From assembly GCA_040752895.1 (NCBI GenBank), contig JBFMHN010000001.1:289213-353212 (forward strand): a stretch of DNA of 64,000 bases, given 5' to 3'. A model generated the notes under the pieces. It saw only the letters and a list, made by a program, of their open reading frames with translations. It had not been told where the DNA came from and made no database searches. The stretch comes from Pseudomonadota bacterium (GTDB taxonomy: Bacteria; Pseudomonadota; Alphaproteobacteria; GCA-2746255). The position numbers and the translations under genes are program-made. Each line of letters starts with the position of its first letter. The stretch's first letter is position 1. This document shows positions 5,003-38,598 of the stretch, piece by piece.

Positions 5003-5769
5003 TCTTCAAGCTCGCACCAGATCGGCGTGTGGTCCGAGGGCTTTTCCTTGGCCCTTGGCCGCTTGTCGATGTCGCAGGCGAGAAGGCGGTCGGCGGCCTG
5101 GGGCGAAAGCAGCAGGTGGTCGATGCGAAGGCCCAAGTCCCGGTCGAAGGCGCGGCCCTGGTAGTCCCAATAGGTGAAGGCGAGTTTCTCCGGGTGCAGC
5201 CCCCGGAAGGCGTCGGTCAGCCCTGAAAAAAGAAGGGTGCGGAATTTGGCGCGCGAACGGGTGTGGTAAAGCGCGTCCCCCTCCCAGCCCTTGGGGTCGA
5301 ACACGTCTTCCCCAGCCGGGATCACATTGAAATCGCCGGCCAGCACGAAGGCCTCCTCGGTTTTTAAAAGCGCGTCGGCGTGGCGCTTCAGGCGGTCGAG
5401 CCAACGCAGCTTGTAATCGAATTTCTCGGAACCGACCGGGTTGCCGTTCGGAAGGTAGAGGCAAGCGATGCGCACGCCCTTGATCCGCGCTTCGAGATAG
5501 CGGGCCTGGTCGTCCGCCTTGTCGCCGGGCAGCCGCCGTTCCAGCACCTCGATGGGGTGCGGGGAAAGGATGGCGACGCCGTTATAGGCCTTCTGGCCGA
5601 CCACGGCGGCCTGGTAGCCGGCCGCCTCGATCTCGAGGCGGGGGAAGTTTTCTTCGACGGTCTTGATTTCCTGGAGGCAAACGACGTCCGGCTTCACGGC
5701 CTTCAGCCAGTCGAGGAGGTGAGGCAGCCGCGACTTGACGGAATTGACGTTCCAGGAGGCGATCTTCAT
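4987..5769 (-). CDS. xthA: exodeoxyribonuclease III
   Basis: This 260-residue protein belongs to the EEP (exonuclease-endonuclease-phosphatase) superfamily and begins [10 protein letters not shown], the first conserved strand of ExoIII/AP endonucleases. The metal-binding glutamate lies in CLQEIKT (about residue 34). The catalytic GDFNV block is near residue 147, and the C-terminal SDHTPI motif carries the general-base histidine. Family members cut at abasic sites and remove 3' blocking groups in base excision repair. It is convergent with ilvD, and the two coding ends overlap by 16 bp. The specific XthA label, rather than another ExoIII-type nuclease, rests on length and overall similarity. 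Confidence 0.93.
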
Positions 5770-5852
5770 TTTGAATCTATCATATTCTTTTTATTTAAAT
5801 TTCGCTGGCGGTCCATCCAAGGACCCCATGCCGATTCGTTCCTCCGGCCATC

Positions 5853-6554
5853 TCACGGGCGGCGTTTCGCCACCTCGTCCATGAGTTCGATCTGAATCTG
5901 CTGAATCTCTACCAGCCGCTCCCATTGGCTTGACAGGAGATGGTCGATTTTTTCGTGGAGTTGCCGGATCTCGAGTTCCGCCTTGAGATTCACTTGATAG
6001 TCGTTCACCGACCGCATGCGATCCTTCGCCTCCTGACGGTTCTGGCTCATCATGATGATCGGCGCCTGGACAGCAGCCAAGCATGAAAGAAGCAGGTTGA
6101 GGAGAATGAAAGGATAAGGATCGAAGGGGCGCGCCAAGAGGACGATGCTGTTGATTGTCACCCATAGCAGCATGACGCCGAAAAATATGAGAATAAACCG
6201 CCAGCTTCCGCCAAAGGAAGCGAGCCGGTCGGACCAAATTTCGCCCGTGGTCCGATTCTTCTGAAAATCGTCGGCGACGTTGGTGGACAGAAGCTCGTGC
6301 TGCCTGAGGCTTTCGACCACGTCGCGTTCGATGACGGAGAGTTCACCTTTCTCCTGCTCTAGAAGCGATCGGATGGCGGCCGCCCGGAACTGGTTAAGGT
6401 CGGTTCGGCAAATATAACCGCCAGCCGACCAGTCGGGATGGTTCGGGCGAATCTGCGCGACGATGGCTTCCCGAATCAATTCTGCGGGAATCATCTCGGC
6501 GGCGCGCTTCGACTTTCCACATATTTGGCAGACAAAATAGCTAGTTTTTGTCAT
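5853..6554 (-). CDS. DUF1003 family membrane protein
   Basis: The protein has 233 residues. The N-terminal part has a CxxC pair (CQICGK, residues 9-14) and a further cysteine in YICRTDL, suggesting a small metal-binding knuckle. The middle carries two hydrophobic segments (about residues 117-137 and 148-170), ending in the diagnostic PIIMMSQNRQEAKDR stretch of DUF1003. The C-terminus is a charged helix, probably coiled coil. DUF1003 proteins are widespread two-TM inner-membrane proteins without an assigned biochemical role. The ATG at 6554 begins the conserved N-terminus. It is not in an obvious operon: xthA lies 83 bp downstream, and no gene is seen on the 180 bp upstream side. Confidence 0.85.
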   Translation of the reverse strand: MTKTSYFVCQICGKSKRAAEMIPAELIREAIVAQIRPNHPDWSAGGYICRTDLNQFRAAAIRSLLEQEKGELSVIERDVVESLRQHELLSTNVADDFQKNRTTGEIWSDRLASFGGSWRFILIFFGVMLLWVTINSIVLLARPFDPYPFILLNLLLSCLAAVQAPIIMMSQNRQEAKDRMRSVNDYQVNLKAELEIRQLHEKIDHLLSSQWERLVEIQQIQIELMDEVAKRRP

Positions 6555-6733
6555 CGTGCACCGGCTTTCCCCATACGATCCTTCGACTGGCCCGCATGAT
6601 ATCGGAAGATAACCGGGCGGCGAATGATGCTGCCAAGGTTGTTCTGGGCGGAGGCGTTTTTTGGCCGGCCAGCGCCCATCCGCCCCGGACCATTTCCCGG
6701 TTGGATCGGCGAGTCTCGGTGGGGAAGCCGGGC

Positions 6734-7084
6734 CTAGCCGACCGAGAAGGAATTGCCGCAGCCGCAGGAGGTAGTCGCGTTGGGGTTGCGGATCGCGAAG
6801 GCCGAGCCGACCAGGTCTTCGACGAAGTCCACCTCGGCGCCGGCCAGGTATTCGCGGCTGATGCTGTCGATCACGACCCGGATTCCGTTTTGCGCGATCA
6901 CGGTGTCGTCGTCGCTGGTGACGTTGTCGAAGGTGAAATTGTATTGGAAGCCCGAGCAGCCGCCGCCGGTGACGGCGATGCGGAGCATATAGCCGTCACC
7001 CGCTTCCTTGGTGACGAGCTCGGCTATGCGGCGGGCGGCGTTTCCTGAAATCGTCATCGGGGCTTGGTTTTCCATGGCGTCCAT
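6734..7084 (-). CDS. erpA: iron-sulfur cluster insertion protein ErpA (A-type carrier)
   Basis: This 116-residue A-type carrier has the three ligand cysteines of the HesB/IscA/ErpA family, one in GGGCSGFQY and two in SCGCGNSF at the C-terminus. Such proteins receive Fe-S clusters from the assembly machinery and pass them to apo-enzymes. The frame extends further upstream, but family similarity begins after MENQAP. An ATG at 7084 has GAGAAG ten bases before it, while a second ATG at 7075 lacks such a site, so 7084 is preferred. It is divergent from dgt. ErpA is chosen over IscA because no isc/suf genes surround it and because this position next to dgt is usual in alphaproteobacteria. Confidence 0.88.
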   Translation of the reverse strand: MDAMENQAPMTISGNAARRIAELVTKEAGDGYMLRIAVTGGGCSGFQYNFTFDNVTSDDDTVIAQNGIRVVIDSISREYLAGAEVDFVEDLVGSAFAIRNPNATTSCGCGNSFSVG

Positions 7085-7254
7085 CTTAAGGCATCTTCTC
7101 GGCGGCGGTCCATAAAGCCGGTGGCCAGCTTTGGATGTGGGGGGCTTTCCGGATTTAATCAATGTTTTTAATCGGTTCCCCAGAGCGGCTTGGCGACGGG
7201 AAACGGCAAGCCGCCCGTTGCGCGGTGGTGTTGCTTCCGAGTAGTGTCCCGGCC

Positions 7255-8433
7255 ATGGGAACGCTTGCCCCTTACGCCTGCGATCCGAACGCGAGCCGTG
7301 GCCGGCTTTACGCGGAGCCGGAAAGCACCATGCGGACGGTCTTTCAACGCGACCGCGACCGGGTCATCCATTCCACGGCCTTCCGCCGCCTCAAATACAA
7401 GACGCAAGTCTTCGTTTACCACGAGGGCGACAACTACCGGACCCGTCTCACCCATACCCTCGAAGTGGCCCAGATCGCCCGCGCCATCGCGCGCGCGCTT
7501 TCCCTGAACGAGGATATGGCCGAGGCGCTGGCGCTCGCCCATGACCTTGGCCATCCCCCCTTCGGCCATGCCGGCGAAACCGGACTGAACGATGCGATGG
7601 CGGAATTCGGCGGTTTCGATCACAACGCCCATACGCTTCGCATCCTGACCAAGCTCGAGCGGCGCTACGCGGAATTCGATGGCCTCAATCTCACTTGGGA
7701 GACCCTGGAAGGGGTCGTCAAGCACAACGGTCCGCTTACCGGGCCGCAGGTGGCGTCGTCGAAGAAGGTGCCGGCCGGCATTCTTGAATACGTCCTTCGC
7801 CACGACCTCGGGATCGGAAGTTTTCCTTCCACGGAAGCCCAGGTCGCATCCCTTTCCGACGACATCGCCTATCACAGCCACGACCTCGATGATGGCCTGC
7901 GGGCGGGCTTCTTCACGGTGGAAGAGGTGGCGGCACTTCCCCTCGTCGGCCCTCTGGTCGCCGAGGTGCGGGCGCGCTATCCGGCGATCGAGATCCGCCG
8001 GCTGATCCCCGAGACGATCCGCCGTCTGATCAACCACATGGTGCAGGACCTGATCCGCGAGACGGAAGGCCGCCTTGCCCAGGCGAAGCCGGAAAGCGCC
8101 GGGGCTGTCCGGGCGCTTGGTTTCCCGGTCGTCGCTTTCTCCGAGAAGGTCGCCAACGAGAACCGGAAGCTCAAGGAATTCCTGATGCGACGGATGTACC
8201 GCCACTACAAGGTAAACCGTATGGCGAGCAAGGCCCGCCGTGTCGTGAAGGAGCTGTTCGGCCATCTCCTCGACGAGCCGGAATGCCTGCCTACGGAATG
8301 GGAGGCGGAGGCGAAGCCCCTCGACCGGACAGGTCGTGCCCAGCTTGTCCTTGATTACGTGGCCGGCATGACGGACCGCTATGCGCTGGAGGAGCACCGC
8401 CGGCTCTTCGATATCTACGCGAATCCATTATGA
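7255..8433 (+). CDS. dgt: deoxyguanosinetriphosphate triphosphohydrolase-like protein
   Basis: The product (392 residues) is an HD-domain dNTPase of the Dgt-like type, releasing tripolyphosphate from dNTPs and so helping set nucleotide pools. Visible signatures are [14 protein letters not shown] (first metal histidine), [14 protein letters not shown] (the HD pair) and the later [14 protein letters not shown]. The open frame runs back to 7162, but the first 31 residues do not resemble the family; the ATG at 7255 begins [10 protein letters not shown], the usual Dgt-like N-terminus. The stop overlaps the argS start as ATGA (8430-8433), implying coupled translation. The true substrate preference cannot be read from sequence. 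Confidence 0.92.
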
Positions 8434-10187
8434 ATCTTTTCAAATATTTTCAGGCAGAAGTTCTCAATATAGTTGAGGAATTGGCGGTGGCGGGCGAGCT
8501 GCCGCCCGACCTTGATGCGACGAAGGTTGTCATCGAGCCGCCGCGCGAGGCCGCCCATGGCGACGTCTCGACCAACGCGGCCCTCGTGCTGGCCAAGCTG
8601 GTGGGAAAGAAGCCCCGGGAACTTGCCGAACGCCTGGCGAAGCTTTTGGCGGAGCACCCGGCGGTCGTAACGGCCGAGGCTGCCGGCCCCGGCTTCATCA
8701 ATTTACGCTTGAGCGACGCCTTCTGGTGCGCCCGCCTGGCGGATGTCCTGGAAGCCGGCACGGCCTATGGGGATTCGAACCTGGGGCAGGCCGGGAAGGT
8801 GAACGTCGAGTTCGTTTCGGCAAACCCGACCGGACCCCTGCATATCGGCCACGGGCGGGGGGCCGTCATCGGCGACGTGCTGGCCACTCTCCTCGAAAAG
8901 GTCGGCTATCACGTCACCCGCGAGTATTACATCAACGACGCCGGCGCCCAGGTCGAAAAACTGGGGCGGGCGGCCTATGACCGCTACCGCGAGGCCTTGG
9001 GCGTCGCGGTAGCGCCGGACGCCTTCGACGCCACCTACCCCGGCGAGTATCTGAAGCCGGTCGGCAAGAAACTGGCCGAAAAATACGGCCGCGCATGGGT
9101 GAACGCGGCGCCGGAAGACCGCCTTCCCGTCTTCCGCGACTTCGCCGTCGCGGAGATGCTGGCGTTGATCCGGGAGGACTTGAAGGCGCTCGGCATTGTG
9201 TTCGATGTCTTTTCGTCCGAACGCGCCCTGGTGGAAGAAGGCGGCGTTGCGGCCGCCTTCGAGACGCTCTCGGCGAACGGCCTCATCTACGAGGGCATCC
9301 TGCAGCCCCCGAAAGGTATGGTGCCCGAGGACTGGGAACCCAGGCCGCAAATGCTGTTCCGCTCGAGAGATTTCGGCGACGATGTGGATCGGCCACTCCG
9401 CAAATCCGACGGCAGCTGGACCTATTTCGCCTCCGACATCGCTTACCACCTGGACAAGTTCCAGCGCGGCTTTGCCGCCATGATCGACGTCTGGGGCGCG
9501 GACCACGCCGGCTACATCAAGCGCATGCAGGCGGCGGTGAAGGCGATCACCGACGGCAAGGGCGACCTCGACGTCAAGGTGTGCCAGCTCGTCAACCTGT
9601 TCGAAGGCGGGGCTCCGGTGAAGATGTCGAAACGGTCCGGCGTCTTCGTCACGCTTGCCGACGTCGTGAACGAAGTCGGCAAGGACGTCGTCCGCTTCAT
9701 CATGCTGACCCGCAAGAACGACGTGACTCTCGACTTCGATACCGAGAAAGTGCTGGAACAGACCCGGGACAACCCGGTTTTTTATGTGCAATACGCCTAC
9801 GCCCGGGCCCATTCCGTGCTTCGTCATGCCAGGGAGGCGTTTCCCTCGCTCGACCTTTCGCCGATCGCGCTGGCGCGGGCCGCTTTTGGCCGGTTGACCG
9901 AACCCGGCGAGCTTGCTCTCATTCGCAAAATGGCGGACTGGCCGCGCCAGGTGGAGACGGCGGCGCGCTTCCATGAACCGCACCGGCTGGCCTTCTACCT
10001 TTACGAACTGGCCGGTGAATTTCACGGCCAGTGGAACCGGGGGAACGAGGATTCGGATTTGCGATTCCTAAGATTGGACGATCTCGAACTTTCCGCCGCC
10101 CGCCTCGGTCTCGTTTCGGCGCTGGCGATCGTGATCGCCTCGGGCCTTGAAATTTTCGGGGTCGAGCCGGTGGAGGAGATGCGCTGA
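8430..10187 (+). CDS. argS: arginine--tRNA ligase
   Basis: This is a 585-residue class I synthetase. The HIGH motif is HIGH at residues 138-141, inside [13 protein letters not shown]. The KMSKS equivalent is KMSKRSG in the second half, the degenerate form common in bacterial ArgRS. The N-terminal ~110 residues form the Add1 tRNA-recognition domain, and the C-terminus is the DALR anticodon-binding domain ([14 protein letters not shown] and onward). It charges tRNA-Arg. It overlaps dgt by 4 bp upstream and meets the SPOR gene in TGATG downstream, so it sits in the middle of a tightly packed operon. Confidence 0.98.
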
Positions 10188-10954
10188 TGCCGCGGAGAGA
10201 GCCTTACGAACCAACCACGGCCCGCCGGTCCATTTTCCTGCGCGGCGGGTTCCTGGGCTTTCTTCTGGTCGTCGTCGCGTTTGGCGCGTTCGCCGCCGTC
10301 GTCTGGATTGCCTACGAGGAAGGGGTGAAATCCGGGGCGAAGACCGTCATTCCCATCGTCCGCGCCGAAAAGGAACCGGTCAAGGTGCGCCCCGAACAGC
10401 CCGGCGGCATGGATGTCCCGTTTCAGGACAAGCTTGTCTACGAAGGCATTTCGGAAGGGGTTGGCAGACAGGAGACGACCCATATGACACCGCCGCCGGA
10501 GGCGCCCGTAGCGCCACCCGCGGCGGCGGTGGAAACGGAAGCGGCCGTGGCGGCAGCCCCACCTAAGACCGAGGTTCTGCAGCTTCTGGAATCGGAAAAG
10601 AAAGCCGCCCCTGAGGTCGTTGCCATTGAGCCCTCCCAGCCGCCGCAGGAAACGGCGCCGCAGGCGGCCGAGAAGGCGGTCGAGAAGGCGGTCGAGCCGG
10701 CCGGGAAGCCTTTCCGCGTCCAGCTCGTCGCCCTGCGGTCGGAGGCGGAGGCGCAAGCCTTCTGGAGCCAGCATCAAAAATCGGAAAACGACCTTCTGGG
10801 CGCGCTCACCCTTCATGTCGAGCGGGCGGAGCTCGGCGAAAGGGGCACCTTCTTCCGCGTGCAGGCCGGTCCGCTGGCGGACGAGGCGGCGGCGACCGCG
10901 CTTTGCACCCGGCTGCAACAACGCAAGATAGGCTGTCTGGTTGTCCGGCCCTGA
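10187..10954 (+). CDS. SPOR domain-containing membrane protein
   Basis: The protein has 255 residues. A short basic cytoplasmic N-terminus is followed by one transmembrane helix (about residues 17-40). A long Pro/Ala/Glu-rich periplasmic linker follows, and then a C-terminal SPOR domain (about 178-255) beginning FRVQLVALRSEAEAQAFW and ending CLVVRP. SPOR domains bind denuded septal peptidoglycan, so the protein is expected at the division site. Its stop/start junction with argS is TGATG, and it overlaps nagZ by 14 bp. The dgt-argS-SPOR-nagZ order is recurrent in alphaproteobacteria. No enzymatic domain is visible. Confidence 0.88.
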   Translation: MPRREPYEPTTARRSIFLRGGFLGFLLVVVAFGAFAAVVWIAYEEGVKSGAKTVIPIVRAEKEPVKVRPEQPGGMDVPFQDKLVYEGISEGVGRQETTHMTPPPEAPVAPPAAAVETEAAVAAAPPKTEVLQLLESEKKAAPEVVAIEPSQPPQETAPQAAEKAVEKAVEPAGKPFRVQLVALRSEAEAQAFWSQHQKSENDLLGALTLHVERAELGERGTFFRVQAGPLADEAAATALCTRLQQRKIGCLVVRP

Positions 10955-11981
10955 CCGAAACCCCCCGAAGGCGCTTATCCTCGGCTGCCGGGGAACCGTC
11001 CTTAGCGAAGAAGAGCGCCGCTTCTTCCGGGAGGCGAACCCCTTGGGTTTCATCCTTTTCGAACGCAACTGCGCCGAGCCTGGGCAGGTCCGCGCTCTGG
11101 TTTCAGCGCTGCGCCTTTGCGTGGGGCGCGAAACCGCCCCCGTCTTGATCGATCAGGAAGGAGGGAGGGTGCAAAGGCTGCGGCCTCCCCATTGGCGGGA
11201 GGCGCCCGCCATGGCGCGGTTCGGCAGGCTTGCGGAAACGAAGCCCGAGGCCGCGCGGAAAGCCGTCTGGCTGAACGGCCGGCTGCTTGCCGGCGAACTG
11301 GCCGAGCTTGGGATTTCGGTCGACTGCGCGCCGGTGCTGGACCTGCTGGCCGAGGGCGCGGATCCCGTCATCGGCGATCGCGCCTTCGGGAACGATGCGA
11401 GCCTGATTTCCAGTCTGGGCCGGGCCTTGTGTGAAGGCTTGCTGGCCGGCGGCGTGCTGCCGGTCCTGAAGCATATTCCCGGCCATGGCCGCGCCCAGGC
11501 CGACAGCCACAAGGCGCTTCCCCGCGTCGAGGCTTCCGAGGCGGAGCTCGTGGCGACCGACTTTCTTCCCTTCCGGGAACTGGCCGATATGCCGCTCGCG
11601 ATGACCGCCCATATTGTCTATGCCGCCTTCGACCGCGAAAGACCGGCAACGCTTTCCCCCGCCGTCGTAAGCGAAGTTATCCGCCGGCGGATCGGCTTCG
11701 ATGGCTTCCTGATGACGGACGATATCGCGATGGGGGCGTTGGGGGGCCCGCTGGCGGTGCGCGCCGGGGCAGCCATAGCCGCCGGTTGCGATGCCATACT
11801 TCACTGCAACGGGCGGCTCGACGAAATGGCGGAGATCGCGGCTGCTGTCGGTCCCCTCGATCTGGCGGCGGCTGCCCGGCTTGCCCGCGCCGAAAGGCGG
11901 CGGAGCGCGGGAAGGGAAGGGATAAATTTGGATAGGGCGCGAAGCGAGTTTGCCGAACTCATGGGCGGGGTATCGGGATGA
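10941..11981 (+). CDS. nagZ: beta-N-acetylhexosaminidase NagZ
   Basis: This glycoside hydrolase family 3 enzyme (346 residues) removes N-acetylglucosamine from anhydro-muropeptides in the cytoplasm during cell-wall recycling. The substrate-binding motif KHIPGHG-x5-SHKALP is intact near residue 175-192. The nucleophile aspartate is expected in LMTDDIAMGAL (about residue 255), and IDQEGGRVQRL is the typical early motif. The chosen start is a TTG at 10941, overlapping the SPOR gene by 14 bp. No better in-frame ATG lies before the conserved GCRGTVLSEEE stretch. The 3' end overlaps the M50 protease start as ATGA. Confidence 0.93.
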   Translation: MSGPDRNPPKALILGCRGTVLSEEERRFFREANPLGFILFERNCAEPGQVRALVSALRLCVGRETAPVLIDQEGGRVQRLRPPHWREAPAMARFGRLAETKPEAARKAVWLNGRLLAGELAELGISVDCAPVLDLLAEGADPVIGDRAFGNDASLISSLGRALCEGLLAGGVLPVLKHIPGHGRAQADSHKALPRVEASEAELVATDFLPFRELADMPLAMTAHIVYAAFDRERPATLSPAVVSEVIRRRIGFDGFLMTDDIAMGALGGPLAVRAGAAIAAGCDAILHCNGRLDEMAEIAAAVGPLDLAAAARLARAERRRSAGREGINLDRARSEFAELMGGVSG

Positions 11982-12664
11982 ACACGGCGGAGATTCTCTA
12001 CACGGCGTCCGTCTGGGTGGTGCCAGTCCTGCTTGCCATCACGCTGCACGAGGCGGCCCATGGCTTTGTGGCGCTTCGCTTCGGCGACGATACAGCGCTG
12101 CGCGCCGGCCGCGTCACGCTCAACCCGTTCCGTCACGTGGATGGCTTCGGAACGATCCTGCTGCCGGCGCTGCTCCTGCTTGTCCGCTCGCCCATTCTGT
12201 TCGGCTACGCGAAGCCGGTGCCGGTCAATTTTGCCAATCTCCGCACCCCGAAGCGGGACATGATCTGGGTGGCGGTGGCCGGGCCGGGGATGAATCTTCT
12301 GCTCGCCCTTTTCTCGGCGCTCGGCTTCCACCTCGTGCCACTGTTTCCGGAAGGGGGCCAGGGATGGCTTTCCGATAATCTTGAAAATTCTATTTTTATC
12401 AATTTGGTATTGGCAGTCTTTAATATGTTGCCTTTGCCGCCGTTGGATGGCGGCCGGGTCGTCATGGGTCTGCTTCCCTATGGGCTTGCCGTCCATTTTG
12501 CCAAGCTCGAAAGATGGGGGATGCCCCTGCTTCTTGGGCTGCTTTTCATTTTGCCGATGCTTGGCACGCTGATCGGCGTTAATCTAAACGTATTCACATG
12601 GCTCGTGCGCGTTCCCGCCGAAGCGGTATTCCGCATGATTCTCACCCTTGCCGGGCTGAATTGA
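11978..12664 (+). CDS. site-2 protease family (M50) membrane metallopeptidase
   Basis: This 228-residue polytopic protein has the zinc motif HEAAH at residues 24-28 in its first hydrophobic segment and the second S2P signature NMLPLPPLDGGR near residue 151, which supplies the third ligand. Five or six membrane segments are visible. It has no PDZ domain, so it belongs to the small S2P group rather than RseP. Family members cut substrates within the membrane; the substrate here is unknown. It overlaps nagZ by 4 bp and is followed by scpA after 16 bp, a neighbourhood that is common for this family in alphaproteobacteria. Confidence 0.9.
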   Translation: MNTAEILYTASVWVVPVLLAITLHEAAHGFVALRFGDDTALRAGRVTLNPFRHVDGFGTILLPALLLLVRSPILFGYAKPVPVNFANLRTPKRDMIWVAVAGPGMNLLLALFSALGFHLVPLFPEGGQGWLSDNLENSIFINLVLAVFNMLPLPPLDGGRVVMGLLPYGLAVHFAKLERWGMPLLLGLLFILPMLGTLIGVNLNVFTWLVRVPAEAVFRMILTLAGLN

Positions 12665-12680
12665 GTATCAAAGAAGCTTG

Positions 12681-13490
12681 ATGGAACTGGATAGCATCCT
12701 AGACAGTGCCGACAGCGCCTTCGAAGCGCCACCGATCGTCAATCGGGATGGCCAATTCGTCCTCAATCTGACGGGCTTCGAGGGCCCTATCGACGTTCTG
12801 CTTGCGCTGGCGCGGGAACAGAAGCTCGACCTTGCCCAGATTTCCATCCTGGAACTCGCCGACCAGTACCTCGACTTTATTATGCGAGTTCGCAAGGAAC
12901 ATCTTGAAATAGCTGCTGATTACCTAGTTATGGCGGCGTGGCTTGCCTACCTCAAGTCGAAGCTTCTCCTGCCGGAACCCGAGGAGGGCGAGGAAGGGCC
13001 GACCGCCGCCGAGATGGCTGAGGCGCTGGCCTTCCAGCTTCGCCGTCTCGAGGCGATGCAGGAGGCGAGCCGGCAGCTCTTTGGGCTGCCGCAGTTGGGT
13101 CGGGACGTTTTCGGCCGCGGCGATCCGGAAGGGATCACGGTGATCGGAAAGTCCGTTTACGACTTTTCGCTGTACGACCTTCTGAAAAGTTATGGCGAGA
13201 CCCGCGATCGCAGTCAGCTCGGGATGCTGCAGATCGAACCGTCGAAGCTGATGACGATGGAAGAAGCGCTCCAGCGTCTTTCCACCATGCTTGGCGGCAT
13301 GCCAGACTGGCAGACGCTTTCAAGCTACCTTCCGGAAATTCTGGAAGGCGACAGCACCCTGCGGCGGCGTTCGGCCATTGCCGCGACCTTCGCGGCGAGC
13401 TTGGAGCTTGTCCGCACCGGCAAGGCCGAGATTCGTCAGGAACGGAATTTTGGGCCCATCTACATCCGAAAGGCACCGGACGCGAAATGA
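12681..13490 (+). CDS. scpA: segregation and condensation protein A
   Basis: ScpA is the kleisin subunit of the SMC-ScpAB condensin, which compacts and resolves new chromosomes. The 269-residue product has the conserved N-terminal domain (LNLTGFEGPIDVLLALAR, about residues 31-48, then LDLAQISI and YLVMAAWLAYLKSKLLLP). An acidic linker follows, then a C-terminal winged-helix segment (about 190-265). The start is the ATG at 12681; the TTG three bases before it is possible but less likely. The stop overlaps scpB as ATGA, fitting joint expression of the two partners. Confidence 0.95.
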   Translation: MELDSILDSADSAFEAPPIVNRDGQFVLNLTGFEGPIDVLLALAREQKLDLAQISILELADQYLDFIMRVRKEHLEIAADYLVMAAWLAYLKSKLLLPEPEEGEEGPTAAEMAEALAFQLRRLEAMQEASRQLFGLPQLGRDVFGRGDPEGITVIGKSVYDFSLYDLLKSYGETRDRSQLGMLQIEPSKLMTMEEALQRLSTMLGGMPDWQTLSSYLPEILEGDSTLRRRSAIAATFAASLELVRTGKAEIRQERNFGPIYIRKAPDAK

Positions 13491-33648: not shown

Positions 33649-34182
33649 ATGCACCGCATCGGCATCTACCCGGGTACCTTCGACCCGATCACGAACGGGC
33701 ATTTCGACATCATCACGCGGGCGATGAAATTCCTCGACGAAGTCGTCGTCGCCGTTGCCGAAAACGCCGGCAAGGACCCGGTGTTCGCGCTGGCCGAGCG
33801 CGTCGAAATGGTTGAGGAGGAAATCGCCGTCCTCAACCACGCCGGCAACCGCATTCGGGTGAAGCCGTTCAGCAACCTTCTGATGCACTTCGCGATCGAG
33901 AACGATGCCTCCGTCATTCTGCGGGGCCTTCGCGCCGTCTCCGATTTCGAATACGAATTCCAGATGGCGGGCATGAACGCCCGCATCCACCCGCCGATCG
34001 AGACGGTCTTCTTGATGGCCTCCGAGCGCCACCAGTTCATCTCGTCGCGCTTCGTGAAGGAGGTAAGCCGCCTGGGCGGCGACGTGAGCCAGTTCGTGCC
34101 GCCTCGGGTGTTCGAGCGCCTGAAGGCGAAATCCGCCAAACGCGATCCGAAGAAGCTGGTTCAGACTTTCGAAGACAAATAG
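33649..34182 (+). CDS. coaD: phosphopantetheine adenylyltransferase
   Basis: CoaD (177 residues) adenylates 4'-phosphopantetheine in coenzyme A synthesis. It is a nucleotidyltransferase with GTFDPITNGHFDI (T/HxGH motif, residues 9-21), LRGLRAVSDFEYEFQMAGMN and the C-terminal ISSRFVKE motif. The length is slightly above the E. coli enzyme, with a basic tail. It is closely coupled to gyrA (5 bp gap, AGGC before the ATG), a neighbourhood seen in other alphaproteobacteria. It ends 79 bp before tRNA-Lys. Confidence 0.96.
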   Translation: MHRIGIYPGTFDPITNGHFDIITRAMKFLDEVVVAVAENAGKDPVFALAERVEMVEEEIAVLNHAGNRIRVKPFSNLLMHFAIENDASVILRGLRAVSDFEYEFQMAGMNARIHPPIETVFLMASERHQFISSRFVKEVSRLGGDVSQFVPPRVFERLKAKSAKRDPKKLVQTFEDK

Positions 34183-34191
34183 TGCAACTTC

Positions 34192-34211
34192 TCTTGCCTT
34201 TGGCGGCAAGA
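34192..34211 (+). terminator. weak stem-loop after coaD
   Basis: Seven paired bases (TCTTGCC / GGCAAGA) with a 6-base loop lie 10 bases after the coaD stop. There is no T-run after it, so it may be a processing or 3'-end stabilising hairpin, or chance. Confidence 0.3.
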
Positions 34212-34261
34212 TGGATTGAGTTAGCCGCCGGGGAGGGATATTCCTAGCGCCCAAGCTTCGT

Positions 34262-34337
34262 GAGCCCGTAGCTCAGTTGGCAGAGCATCTGACTTTTAAT
34301 CAGAGGGTCGATGGTTCGAATCCATCCGGGCTCACCA
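34262..34337 (+). tRNA. tRNA-Lys (anticodon UUU)
   Basis: A full cloverleaf is seen. The acceptor stem is GAGCCCG pairing with CGGGCTC, the D arm is GCTCAGTTGGCAGAGC, and the anticodon stem TCTGA/TCAGA has loop CTTTTAA (anticodon TTT). The T arm contains GGTTCGAATCC, and CCA is encoded. The AT-rich three-gene cassette begins about 120 bp downstream, so this gene may have served as an insertion landmark, although no repeat of its 3' end was found. Confidence 0.97.
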
Positions 34338-34455
34338 GTTTTATAAATAGCATCAAGTAGTTATATAGACTTGAACCGACAGCGGTAGATCGAAAAATCC
34401 TTGTGTTCGCACTATGTCCGCAAAGTGGGGCCGACGGACATGGCCGCCCTAACGA

Positions 34456-35235
34456 TCAGGGGCTAGAATTTAACGACACGTCATTCGATTTCAAAATAGG
34501 GAAACCTTCTTCATCCAACTTTTCCTGATTTCTATCCAAGAAAATAATAAACCGATCTACAATTTTCCATATAAGGCACACCGCTTTTGCGCGCTCCTTA
34601 CCTGTTAGTGCACCCCATTTGCCATGCCGCTCATGCTTTGCTTGTTTGTACAAGAAAGTATGACAGCTATGGTCGAGTCGAAGCTTATCTTCTGCTTCCC
34701 GCAAAGCATGGTTTTTTTCTTTTGGGTAATTCGGCTGAACATGAATTCGTATCCTCTCTAATGTGCGAAAACAAAAGAAGCTCGTATCTTCTAATGATCT
34801 AATGGCCTCTCGGAGATCAGCCAATGCATTTCGAAGAGCCGCGTGTCGAATAGCAAGAGCGCCAACTGTTGCATCATCTAATGATCTTTCTGATTCTTTG
34901 TTTTCTACCTCCTTTACGCTAGGTCCATATATTTGCATTGTGCCGTGGTCGTTAATACACATGCCGCCAGTTATTTCTACGTCCCACCCGATTCCTTTGC
35001 GATATCCGAGAGCATCCACCTGTGATTTCATCACTTGGCCGACAATTAGATAAAGATCGTCAATGAATTCGGGGCTGTGTGAAGTTTCAACCTCAACAAG
35101 GATCTGACCCTTTCCAGAGAAGACCGTAATATGTGGAGATGTACCATCACTAAGAGAAATTGGATAAGTCCTCCGTGGAATAGTCACCCAGCTCCTTTCA
35201 GGGTGAACCCTGCCCGTGAAAATGAATTTGATCAT
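34456..35235 (-). CDS. hypothetical protein, third gene of AT-rich cassette
   Basis: About 259 residues, family not recognised. A perfect GGAGG precedes the ATG at 35235; the frame reaches a TTG at 35247. The N-terminal half is predicted beta-rich (KFIFTGRVHPERSWV, ILVEVETSHSPEFIDD) and the C-terminal half helical and basic. A cysteine/histidine cluster (LDHSCHTFLYKQAKHERHG, about residues 190-208) precedes a helix with IWKIVDRFIIFLDRNQEK. There is no signal peptide or membrane segment. The gene is much richer in A/T than the flanking housekeeping genes and shares strand and spacing with two others upstream, so transfer as a unit is likely. No function is assigned. Confidence 0.75.
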   Translation of the reverse strand: MIKFIFTGRVHPERSWVTIPRRTYPISLSDGTSPHITVFSGKGQILVEVETSHSPEFIDDLYLIVGQVMKSQVDALGYRKGIGWDVEITGGMCINDHGTMQIYGPSVKEVENKESERSLDDATVGALAIRHAALRNALADLREAIRSLEDTSFFCFRTLERIRIHVQPNYPKEKNHALREAEDKLRLDHSCHTFLYKQAKHERHGKWGALTGKERAKAVCLIWKIVDRFIIFLDRNQEKLDEEGFPILKSNDVSLNSSP

Positions 35236-35288
35236 TGTCGCCTCCAAGAGGCCGGGATCACTTGCAATTCAGCCAGCAGAGTTCGAAA

Positions 35289-35594
35289 TCAGGCGCGCCC
35301 CTCTCTCAGAAATGTATCGACGCGATCTGCAAAACTCAAAATTCGGATGGCGATCTCGCTAAGATCGGTTTCCGATAGCTCATCAATTGTGCTGGCTACG
35401 TCACCTTCTCCGACGTTCAGGCGGTCCTCGATGTAGATCCAATCGCTCCGTAAGTCGTCCGGGAGCTTTTTCGACTCAACGGGCCACATTTCAGCATAGG
35501 CCGACTTCATGCGGTCGGCGATGCGCCCTGGGTGCGACACGAGAGATGAGATCGCTTTCGTCAATGCCTGAGAAACGTAATCGAGTCTGGCCAT
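35289..35594 (-). CDS. hypothetical protein, second gene of AT-rich cassette
   Basis: A 101-residue soluble protein, mostly helical and acidic (ESKKLPDDLRSDWIYIEDRL, DELSETDLSEIAIRILSF). No recognised family, signal peptide or membrane segment. Its ATG is 21 bp after the stop of the 377-residue membrane-anchored gene and its stop is 53 bp before the ATG of the next gene, which supports one operon. The upstream purine-rich sequence repeats GAGAATCA, so the ribosome site is uncertain. Base composition is intermediate between the cassette and the genome. Confidence 0.7.
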   Translation of the reverse strand: MARLDYVSQALTKAISSLVSHPGRIADRMKSAYAEMWPVESKKLPDDLRSDWIYIEDRLNVGEGDVASTIDELSETDLSEIAIRILSFADRVDTFLREGRA

Positions 35595-35615
35595 CTGATT
35601 CTCTGATTCTCGCGC

Positions 35616-36749
35616 TCAAACGAACAATGAAATCAACAAGATGATGGTCAATATCCATATGGCAACTTTAATGTGCCCGAATGCATTGCTTAGATCGGAA
35701 ACAGCCCCCAATATTCTCTCGCGAAATTGTGATTCAGGATCTGGTACTTCCTCTTGCGCTTCGTCATATAAATCGTTTTCAAGTTCAAGGGAATTATCAG
35801 CCCATTTTGGCTCTGGCTTTTCTCCAACGGTAATGGAATCTAAAATTATTGAGCATGGTGGTGAATCTCGCTCGGTGGGAATGTAGGGTATGTAGTGGGT
35901 GTCAGGACGTAGTTCGCGTACATAAGAAATCATATTTTTTTCGAATAAGTGAGCCTGAACCACGACCTCTAAGGGAACATTCCCACCGCGCTGCCTAACT
36001 TCGTTTTCGAGCTCAGCTAGAGTTCCTTCTTTCACGTACATTTCGGCAAGTAAATAATCCTCATCCGGATCATGTTCGTCATATTTACGTAATTCATAAT
36101 CTTGGAGCATCAATAGTCCAGCCAGATCATTCTTATACTCGCGGATATAGAGGTAGATTCGATCGAAAGATTGATCAGACTCGATCTCGTCCGGATCAGC
36201 TTCAATCGCAGATTCTATTTTCTTATTATCTGCTTCCCCTTTTTTAGCTACCAAGAATGTTTTGATTGAAGCTCTGCGTTTAATTTCAGCCCAACAAACT
36301 AGCCTAAGTTCTCGACGCTCTTCATATGGGCGTACTTCTCTCCGATGTGCCCATCGAAATTCGGATTGTTCTTTCTCGCTTAGCCCATCGAAATTTTCTC
36401 TTGCCCGCTTAGCCAAGTGCCGAAATTCGCGACGATTTCGACCTTTTTCTTTTTCCTCATCGTTTTCTCCATCTGGTTCTAGATTTTGTTCCTCTCTTTG
36501 CTCATCGAGTATGTCTTGAAGTGCGCCCCATTCATCTGTCTTTAGAACTTTATAGGTTCGTAAAAATTCATAGTCACTTACATGTAAGTATAAGTCGCAC
36601 CACTCCTTAAAATAGGTGTGAGTCTTTTTACCTGTACCAGTGTATTCTTCGATGATTAAAGGATTGACGAAGACTCTTTTTACTTTTGACGAATCATCCT
36701 CGTTACGGGTTTCTTTCTGCTCGGTCTTGGATGTTTTGTCCTCGGTCAT
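35616..36749 (-). CDS. hypothetical charged protein with C-terminal membrane anchor, first gene of AT-rich cassette
   Basis: 377 residues from the ATG at 36749, which follows GGGGAAAAC; a TTG nine codons earlier is possible. The protein is very rich in Glu, Asp, Lys and Arg. It has a highly acidic/basic stretch around residues 70-130 that probably forms coiled coil, and a single C-terminal membrane helix (about 358-377, IKVAIWILTIILLISLFV). This tail-anchored layout puts nearly the whole protein in the cytoplasm. No catalytic motif or family was recognised. Composition is far more AT-rich than the neighbourhood, which together with the tRNA-Lys next door suggests horizontal acquisition. Function unknown; a sensing or defence role is only speculation. 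Confidence 0.75.
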   Translation of the reverse strand: MTEDKTSKTEQKETRNEDDSSKVKRVFVNPLIIEEYTGTGKKTHTYFKEWCDLYLHVSDYEFLRTYKVLKTDEWGALQDILDEQREEQNLEPDGENDEEKEKGRNRREFRHLAKRARENFDGLSEKEQSEFRWAHRREVRPYEERRELRLVCWAEIKRRASIKTFLVAKKGEADNKKIESAIEADPDEIESDQSFDRIYLYIREYKNDLAGLLMLQDYELRKYDEHDPDEDYLLAEMYVKEGTLAELENEVRQRGGNVPLEVVVQAHLFEKNMISYVRELRPDTHYIPYIPTERDSPPCSIILDSITVGEKPEPKWADNSLELENDLYDEAQEEVPDPESQFRERILGAVSDLSNAFGHIKVAIWILTIILLISLFV

Positions 36750-36806
36750 GTTTTCCCCGGCGAATTTCCTACCCAAAGACTAACTTCTTTTAAGCAACCC
36801 GGTCAT

Positions 36807-36823
36807 CCTAAGCTAGGCTTAGG
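36807..36823. repeat. 17-bp inverted repeat
   Basis: CCTAAGC and GCTTAGG flank a 3-base TAG centre, giving a perfect 7-bp dyad about 58 bp upstream of the first gene of the AT-rich cassette. It could be an operator for the minus-strand operon or a junction remnant; a terminator is unlikely because no U-run follows on either strand. Confidence 0.4.
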
Positions 36824-37035
36824 GTTTAAGAAATGTTTCCAATAGCCTGAACAGCTCGGAATCGTTGAAACATGGGGTAGGGAGCTGCAAGGTTATGGCA
36901 AGGTCACGCTCGCAGATACCGCACGTATGCGTCGGCTTCGGCCCTGATTGTTGCCGCTCTGTTGCTCACCGCTCGACGCACTCCGCTCCCCGCCCGCTTC
37001 GCATGCGCGAGCTCGCCGCGACCTTTTCCGTTATC

Positions 37036-37066
37036 TGCGCCGCCGGTCTGTGGTGGTTTTGGCCGG
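37036..37066 (+). repeat. 31-bp direct repeat, copy 1
   Basis: These 31 bases are identical to 38149-38179, where they encode part of the membrane anchor of a cytochrome c. The copies are 1,113 bp apart and flank the aldo/keto reductase gene. Flanking similarity fades quickly on both sides. Here no functional gene is present. Confidence 0.8.
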
Positions 37067-37196
37067 TCCCTCGGGGTGGTGCTACTTGCCGGAACTCGGT
37101 TACCATGGCCTTTGTGCCGAAGGGCAGGGCCCTTCCCGACAAACTTGGGCGGGGTGATCCGAAGGCCGTTCGAAAGCGGCGCGGAGAAGGAAACGC

Positions 37197-38090
37197 ATGA
37201 ACCGGAACCTTGACGGGACGGGGTGGCGGGTAAGGCCGATCGGCCTCGGCGCCATGCAGCTTTCCATCGCGGGGCGGCCGGATGAATCCCAGGCCTTCGC
37301 GGTCATCACCGCGTTCGTCGAAGCGGGCGGCAATTTCATCGACACCGCCAACGTCTACTGCCTGGACGATTCGGACATCGGCCACAACGAGCGCCTTCTC
37401 CACAAGGTGCTTACGCGGATCGGCGCGCAAGACGCCGTGCTGGTCGCCACAAAGGGTGGCCTGCGGCGGCCGAAAGGGGCGTGGGTAACGGATGGGAACC
37501 CGGAATGGCTGCGCGCCTCGTGCGAGAAGAGCCTTAAGGACCTGCAACGCAACGCGCTTCCCCTCTACCACCTCCACGCGGTGGACCCGGACGTGCCCTT
37601 CGAGGAATCGCTCGGGGAATTGATCCGACTTAAAGAGGAAGGAAAAATCCTGAACATCGGGTTGTCGAACGTCGATCGGGCGGAACTTAAGTTTGCGCTT
37701 GGCCGGACGGCGATCGCATCGGTTCAAAATCGCTGCAACCCGTTCTTCAAAAGGGATTTCGGCAGCGGCCTTATTGGTTTTTGCCAGGAACAAGGTGTTG
37801 CCTATATTCCCTTCGGTCCCGTGGGGGGCCATGGGGGCCATGTGCGATTGCCGAAGCATCCGCTCTTCCAGCGTCTCGCCAAGAAGCATGCGACGTCGCC
37901 CTATGGCGTCGCCCTGGCGTGGCTTCTGGAGAAAGGGAACCATATCTTCCCGATCCCGGGGGCGAGCAAGGTGTCGAGCGTGCGCGATTCGGCGCGCGCC
38001 ATCCACCTGCGGCTCGAACCCGACGACGTTGCCGAAATCGACCGCCTGCCGGATCAGGAAGCCCATTCGTCCCGCACCTCTCGTGTCTAG
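37197..38090 (+). CDS. aldo/keto reductase
   Basis: This 297-residue (alpha/beta)8 oxidoreductase shows the catalytic tetrad at D49, Y54, K86 and H127 (FIDTANVY, VATKGG, YHLHAVD). The NADPH-binding C-terminal motif is IPGASKVSSVRDSARA (about residues 257-272). Family members reduce aldehydes, ketones or sugars with NADPH; the substrate cannot be told. The sequence PVGGHGGHVRLP replaces a usual loop and may shape the pocket. The stop overlaps the GTG start of a cytochrome c gene, suggesting co-expression of the two redox proteins. Confidence 0.92.
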   Translation: MNRNLDGTGWRVRPIGLGAMQLSIAGRPDESQAFAVITAFVEAGGNFIDTANVYCLDDSDIGHNERLLHKVLTRIGAQDAVLVATKGGLRRPKGAWVTDGNPEWLRASCEKSLKDLQRNALPLYHLHAVDPDVPFEESLGELIRLKEEGKILNIGLSNVDRAELKFALGRTAIASVQNRCNPFFKRDFGSGLIGFCQEQGVAYIPFGPVGGHGGHVRLPKHPLFQRLAKKHATSPYGVALAWLLEKGNHIFPIPGASKVSSVRDSARAIHLRLEPDDVAEIDRLPDQEAHSSRTSRV

Positions 38091-38598
38091 GGCCGGCCGC
38101 CGGCGCTTGCCGTGGGTCGCGGCTCTTGCCGTGGCCGTGGCCGTCGCTTGCGCCGCCGGTCTGTGGTGGTTTTGGCCGGCCTCTCCGGAGCCGTGGGCCG
38201 ATCCCGACGACGATCGCTTGGTCGCGCTCGGCAAGGTCGTTTATGAGGAGCGCTGCGCCGTTTGCCACGGCACACGGCTGGAAGGCGAGCCCGATTGGCA
38301 GACCCGCAAGCCGGACGGCTTGCTGCCGGCGCCGCCGCACGACGCGACCGGGCATAGCTGGCACCACCCGGACGCCCAGCTTTTCGCCATCACGAAATAC
38401 GGCATCGGGCGGTTTGCGCCGCCGGGCTACCGCAGTGCCATGCCGGCCTTTGAAGAGGTTCTCACCGACGCGGAAATCTGGGCGGCGCTGGCCTATATCA
38501 AAAGCCATTGGCCGGCCCGCGAGCGCGCCTTTCAGGCGCAGATGAACCCGCCCGGCGCCGATCAGGGAAACAGGAAAAAGCCCGCCACCGTGAAATAG
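38083..38598 (+). CDS. membrane-anchored class I cytochrome c
   Basis: 171 residues from a GTG at 38083, which overlaps the aldo/keto reductase by 8 bp. The open frame runs further upstream, but inside that gene. An N-terminal anchor (about residues 10-31) is followed by a periplasmic domain with the haem motif CAVCH (C58, C61, H62) and a likely axial methionine M120 in SAMPAF. The fold ends with DAEIWAALAYIKSHW, the typical last helix of small c-type cytochromes. The anchor codons contain copy 2 of the 31-bp repeat. Its 3' end overlaps the convergent mgtE by 37 bp. The electron partner is unknown. Confidence 0.85.
   Translation: MSRAGRRRLPWVAALAVAVAVACAAGLWWFWPASPEPWADPDDDRLVALGKVVYEERCAVCHGTRLEGEPDWQTRKPDGLLPAPPHDATGHSWHHPDAQLFAITKYGIGRFAPPGYRSAMPAFEEVLTDAEIWAALAYIKSHWPARERAFQAQMNPPGADQGNRKKPATVK
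38149..38179 (+). repeat. 31-bp direct repeat, copy 2 (inside cytochrome c anchor)
   Basis: Identical to 37036-37066. Here it encodes CAAGLWWFWP at the end of the membrane anchor of the cytochrome c, so this copy is the functional one. Confidence 0.8.

Follow-up and report, generated by a model that had tools for sequence, protein, structure and literature searches.

What is a short AT-rich stretch of three genes, none with a recognised family, doing beside a tRNA-Lys gene, and do the three genes work together? We analysed this locus within a window of 64,000 nucleotides, by which we mean the whole stretch of DNA under study. The first-pass annotation had noted a drop in base composition immediately after tRNA-Lys(UUU) and three closely spaced minus-strand genes, and suggested a defence or stress module at a tRNA integration site. 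The features of the locus are listed below, with the genes named A, B and C in order of transcription.

33649..34182, plus strand: coaD, the conserved left flank of the junction
34262..34337, plus strand: tRNA-Lys (TTT), found by ARAGORN; borders the insert on the left and lies downstream of coaD in three congeners as well
34338..36850, right edge approximate: AT-rich foreign insert, delimited by GC content (z -8.8), by GC recovery and by its absence from the congener junction
35616..36749, minus strand: gene A, 377 aa from ATG, a highly charged orphan, with a probable transmembrane helix at its C-terminus
35289..35594, minus strand: gene B, 101 aa, a small helical protein whose faint relatives are lone small genes
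34456..35235, minus strand: gene C, 259 aa, predicted TBP-like N-terminal domain plus HEPN domain (RHG-HEPN family)
34921..35235, minus strand: C residues 1-105, predicted alpha/beta domain, weakly TBP-like (Z 5-7; AF2 model, VIA-align)
34516..34860, minus strand: C residues 126-240, predicted HEPN helical bundle (twelve best VIA-align rows)
34756..34767, minus strand: R157-x2-E160 in HEPN helix 2, the predicted pair of active-site residues (R157 in 25/25 members, an acidic residue at 160 in 25/25)
34621..34629, minus strand: R203-H204-G205 at the end of HEPN helix 3, a variant at the place of the Rx4-6H motif (25/25 members)

An AT-rich insert beside tRNA-Lys is specific to this genome

GC content between 34338 and 36776 (2.4 kb) is 0.446, compared to a mean of 0.620 in same-sized windows elsewhere (sd 0.020, minimum 0.565; z -8.8). 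By tetranucleotide distance, too, this segment falls beyond the range of every other window, and GC is back at 0.65 by position 36900. The described gene layout was also confirmed: about 377, 101 and 259 residues, one strand, gaps of 21 and 53 bp, and all three frames intact. The chance expectation of frames this long is 7e-11 for A and 2e-7 for C; for B alone it is 0.015. GC3 is 0.38 in A, 0.63 in B and 0.39 in C, compared to 0.77-0.85 in adjacent genes. Because B differs from A and C in this respect, it may have a different history. Right of the insert lies a 64-bp direct repeat (37012-37075 and 38125-38188; 80% identical, 31 bp exact), one copy of it near a cytochrome-like gene, which is possibly a duplication scar at that side.

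We compared the coaD/tRNA-Lys junction, as the first-pass annotation had advised, in three congeners (L017, L018 and L019), with gene names there read from the sequence without an HMM check. All three carry coaD, then a cyclophilin-type PPIase gene, then tRNA-Lys. What follows differs: yajQ and then GYD-domain genes in L018, yajQ with copper-chaperone-like and SCO1-like genes in L019, and a large SLC13-like transporter in L017. The window genome has the A-B-C insert, an aldo/keto reductase, the cytochrome-like gene and an mgtE-like gene in this interval, and its yajQ sits elsewhere, away from tRNA-Lys. The PPIase gene is missing at 34182-34262 and was not found elsewhere in the window genome (one search, no positive control). 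Neither C nor A was found in any of the three congeners. Since these carry other genes after tRNA-Lys and lack C and A, the content of the interval varies within the genus, and the insert itself is specific to the window genome. These data indicate that the insert is accessory DNA taken up at a variable spot downstream of tRNA-Lys.

How the insert arrived is a separate matter. As the annotation had said, there is no integrase among the insert ORFs and no duplicated tRNA 3' end within the window. The junction is variable, but no tRNA-end repeat in the window supports attachment at the tRNA itself, and with no integrase ORF either, a tRNA-targeted integrative element is not supported. The insert is also unsupported as an integron cassette: no R''/R' pair of the attC type was found in 34001-37300, and no integron integrase over the integron cut-off was found in the window genome.

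Relatives of gene C are mobile and almost always stand alone

That A, B and C form a compact unit was not borne out by their relatives. No relative of gene A was found in 191 relatives and 398 phylum-wide genomes, or among plasmids, phages and viral contigs, and the protein (P0001) gave chance-level matches to PDB sequences. It is strongly charged with a hydrophobic segment at its C-terminus, and its single-sequence model (mean pLDDT 39) is confident and usable only for the last, C-terminal helix. Gene A is therefore best described as an orphan whose predicted product is probably tail-anchored, as first proposed. For gene B, two genomes of the same class gave weak hits (E 2.3e-4 and 1.7e-3) to small proteins encoded by lone genes, which align along a common G-x-I-x-x-R pattern; one of these faint relatives itself matches a Deinococcus plasmid protein. 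A and B probably share a transcript with C, their neighbour.

Gene C has a wider family. Plasmids of Photobacterium damselae and Aliivibrio salmonicida yielded relatives by tblastn, genome searches added others at low frequency, and a sub-profile recovered 17 loci plus two IMG/VR contigs. Hosts include Mariprofundus, Halomonas, Pseudomonas, Simplicispira, Undibacterium, Lysobacter, Kaistia, Lutimaribacter, two cyanobacteria, a Sulfurimonadaceae MAG, Rhodococcus and further MAGs, so that the family is scattered over four phyla (Pseudomonadota, Cyanobacteria, Campylobacterota and Actinomycetota). We aligned 25 members. Most relatives are about 45-73% identical to each other, across classes and phyla, compared to only about 20-28% identity with gene C itself, whose position in the tree, a long branch next to Rhodococcus, is loose and modestly supported. 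One copy (L045, 1256-2001) is split over two overlapping frames and is thus frameshifted or decayed.

The relatives are almost always lone genes. No A or B homologue was found beside any of them and, generic matches aside, their neighbourhoods have only C itself in common. Settings include prophage ends near tail or endolysin genes, and positions near a relaxase gene, a tyrosine recombinase, a MazF gene or a Uma2 gene. One member is flanked by the candidate defence genes PDC-M36A and PDC-M48B, but most neighbourhoods are not defence islands. In locus L040, a 2.3-kb segment bearing the C-family gene occurs twice (5349-7677 and 10371-12714; 97.8% identity), amid further repeats around 74-aa ORFs and adjoining candidate defence genes. 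Directly behind the Mariprofundus gene, and only there, lies a gene for a small protein with an N-terminal membrane helix (L032, 6784-7233).

Several relatives sit in integron-like surroundings. On the Aliivibrio salmonicida plasmid (L005), the C-family gene lies next to dfrA1 with VCR-like attC repeats on both sides. An array of attC-like sites spans 6740-9620 of that locus and carries dfrA1 and the C-family gene as cassettes close to each other. Across the family, a GTTRRRY core site occurs within 70 bp upstream of 6 of 19 loci, compared to 8 of 135 control genes (Fisher p 0.0026); because a strict pattern turned up few attC sites downstream, these were assessed by eye. An integron-cassette setting is thus supported for several relatives, unlike the window copy. 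Together with the plasmids and prophages, these data indicate that the C family is horizontally mobile.

Gene C is predicted to carry a HEPN fold

At the sequence level the absence of a recognised family stood. None of the three proteins matched Pfam, PHROGs, PADLOC or NCBIfam models above threshold (PADLOC 2023, Pfam 2025, NCBIfam 2026; family names newer than or absent from these versions would escape). Sixteen C-family members gave marginal matches only, for example to CARF_HEPN for two members (6.5e-4), and the family profile matched nothing among PDB chains.

Structure prediction, which had been recommended for all three proteins, gave a different answer for C. An AlphaFold2 model built from a 16-member alignment (mean pLDDT 78, pTM 0.66) has an alpha/beta domain at residues 1-105 and a helical bundle at 121-242. 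In VIA-align, the 12 best chains all have the HEPN fold, although the titles of some give only a gene name or a toxin-antitoxin partner, with Z from 10.9 to 7.7 over 96-112 residues (about 126-240). The first unrelated row follows at Z 6.8, below all 12. For helical bundles, scores short of about 13 may be nothing unusual. The nearest solved structures are AF_0298 (2hsb), the sacsin HEPN domain (3o10) and an AMPylated HEPN toxin (7ae6). Foldseek returned 2hsb at probability 1.00 but with E 0.036; all its E-values were above 0.001, and none fell below 0.001 against viral models either. The N-terminal domain matches TBP halves, the IS608 transposase and others at Z 5-7, which is weak and generic.

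From the structural aligner's result, its exclusively HEPN ranking and the position of a conserved motif described below, we consider it very probable that C carries a HEPN fold, although no Foldseek E-value is below 0.001. By predicted structure, then, the family is HEPN, while it is unlabelled at the sequence level in the libraries used.

The conserved polar site of gene C departs from the usual HEPN motif

Few RNA-cutting modules are as common in bacterial immunity as HEPN domains, most of which are identified through a single motif. That motif is Rx4-6H at the end of helix 3, where the residue after the arginine is mostly N, D or H, and helix 2 carries a conserved acidic residue (PMC3710099). 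In the C family, R157, R203, H204 and G205 are invariant in all 25 aligned members, and position 160 holds E in 24 of them and D in the other. R157 and E160 lie on helix 151-166 of the model and R203-H204-G205 caps helix 189-203, so the helix-2 acidic residue is present and RHG stands where Rx4-6H is expected. A histidine 5-7 residues after R203 is absent in 24 of the 25 members. The annotation had pointed to a His/Cys cluster (DHSCH...HERHG) in C. Its R-H-G part is conserved, the cysteine is not, and we rejected the cluster as a metal site.

The missing Rx4-6H limits the claim of activity more than the claim of fold, because several accepted HEPN families lack this motif (PMC3710099). With the canonical histidine absent in 24 of 25 members, catalysis by C is uncertain.

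Gene C as a possible single-gene defence effector

Our preferred reading, which has about an even chance of being right, is that the functional core of the insert is C, a mobile HEPN protein of the RNase type with a variant active site that would probably act as an anti-phage effector. The fold ranking, the place of the motif, its strict conservation, the mobility of the family and the one member flanked by defence genes all point this way; an RNase activity and a defence role are themselves read from the fold, with an equally even chance. HEPN proteins with alpha+beta N-terminal domains have been described as abortive-infection effectors (PMC3710099). The first suggestion of a defence or stress module thus survives for C, whose predicted fold is typical of defence and toxin proteins, but not for the three-gene operon as a unit.

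Under this reading, C would dimerise, as HEPN proteins usually do. The R157/E160 pair and R203-H204 would form a metal-independent RNA-cutting site, with H204, directly after R203, standing in for the usual histidine 5-7 residues on. The TBP-like N-terminal domain could sense nucleic acid or protein of the invader and restrain the toxin until infection; released C would then arrest growth and so protect the population. No partner antitoxin of C was recognised. More tentatively, and somewhat short of an even chance, C may typify an undescribed HEPN family with an RHG plus R-x2-E site, a self-contained single-gene anti-phage effector spread across phyla by integron cassettes and mobile elements.

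Alternatively, the HEPN domain of C might lack nuclease activity, and C would then be a regulator, carried on accessory DNA, that binds RNA or protein and has RHG and RxxE as its ligand-binding site. We regard this as unlikely but worth serious attention: the usual catalytic histidine is missing, and HEPN families that have lost the motif probably bind RNA, as in a subset of MtlR (PMC3710099). However, four charged or polar residues strictly kept at the usual active-site places suggest chemistry, and both families with an alternative histidine and toxicity of motif-less HEPN proteins have been reported (PMC3710099).

The other two explanations concern the insert as a whole. A, B and C might belong to a single dedicated system, for defence or of the toxin-antitoxin kind, in which C is the effector, B inhibits it and A is a membrane sensor or anchor. 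The short gaps, the common strand and the low GC shared by A and C fit such a system; it is nevertheless improbable, given that C is normally alone, that nothing like A or B was found beside its relatives, that A is an orphan and that the GC3 of B is unlike that of the other two. Improbable in our view, too, is that unrelated accessory genes came together by chance at a hot spot, as a mosaic with no current joint function and with C perhaps decaying. The differing GC3 of B, the orphan status of A, the different genes that each congener carries between tRNA-Lys and the GYD-domain genes, and the damaged L045 copy would all suit a mosaic, but in the window genome every frame is intact and C keeps the family-invariant residues.

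If C cuts RNA, as we prefer, it would represent a second chemistry on the HEPN fold; if not, it would be an unrecognised non-catalytic HEPN accessory protein. In either case, a widespread family with the predicted fold and a strict polar site but a moved histidine suggests that motif-based searches would miss such members. As C is a lone mobile gene, its function is directly testable with a single gene in a single strain.

Comparison with known HEPN systems

C shares with the HEPN superfamily the predicted four-helix fold (residues 126-240), a basic plus polar residue ending helix 3 and the helix-2 acidic residue. It differs in lacking the Rx4-6H histidine, in its fixed RHG triad and R-x2-E, in having no MNT partner and in matching Pfam and PADLOC HEPN models marginally at most. 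An MNT-HEPN toxin-antitoxin pair was excluded, as there is no MNT nucleotidyltransferase gene in the insert and no common neighbour at the relatives. MauJ, considered as a possible similar annotation, was dropped after no mau genes were found in the Paracoccus plasmid stretch examined.

The RNase LS toxins RnlA and LsoA also have a C-terminal HEPN domain, and in some members a TBP-like N-terminal domain (Table 1, PMC3710099). The LsoA chain 5hy3 aligns with the HEPN part of C at Z 6.4. However, C is shorter, has another motif and has no recognised RnlB-like antitoxin: B has no Pfam match above threshold, and the C relatives are lone genes. Alignment of the C family to E. coli K-12 RnlA gave an hhalign probability of 0.1 (E 0.59), with no match to Pfam RnlA. 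An RnlA family search of 299 genomes found nothing even for its controls and so does not bear on this point. C may work by a mechanism like that of RNase LS, but membership in RnlA/LsoA is not supported.

As appears to hold for several relatives of C, the HEPN protein 3jrt is encoded on an integron cassette; its family is listed as having Rx4-6H, and the structural matches shown do not include it. HEPN families without the histidine of Rx4-6H keep the basic residue, as C does. Among them, the AF0298 and AbiV families may use an alternative histidine (PMC3710099), which lies in an insert between helices 2 and 3, whereas that of C directly follows the arginine. AF0298 is also the top structural match of C.
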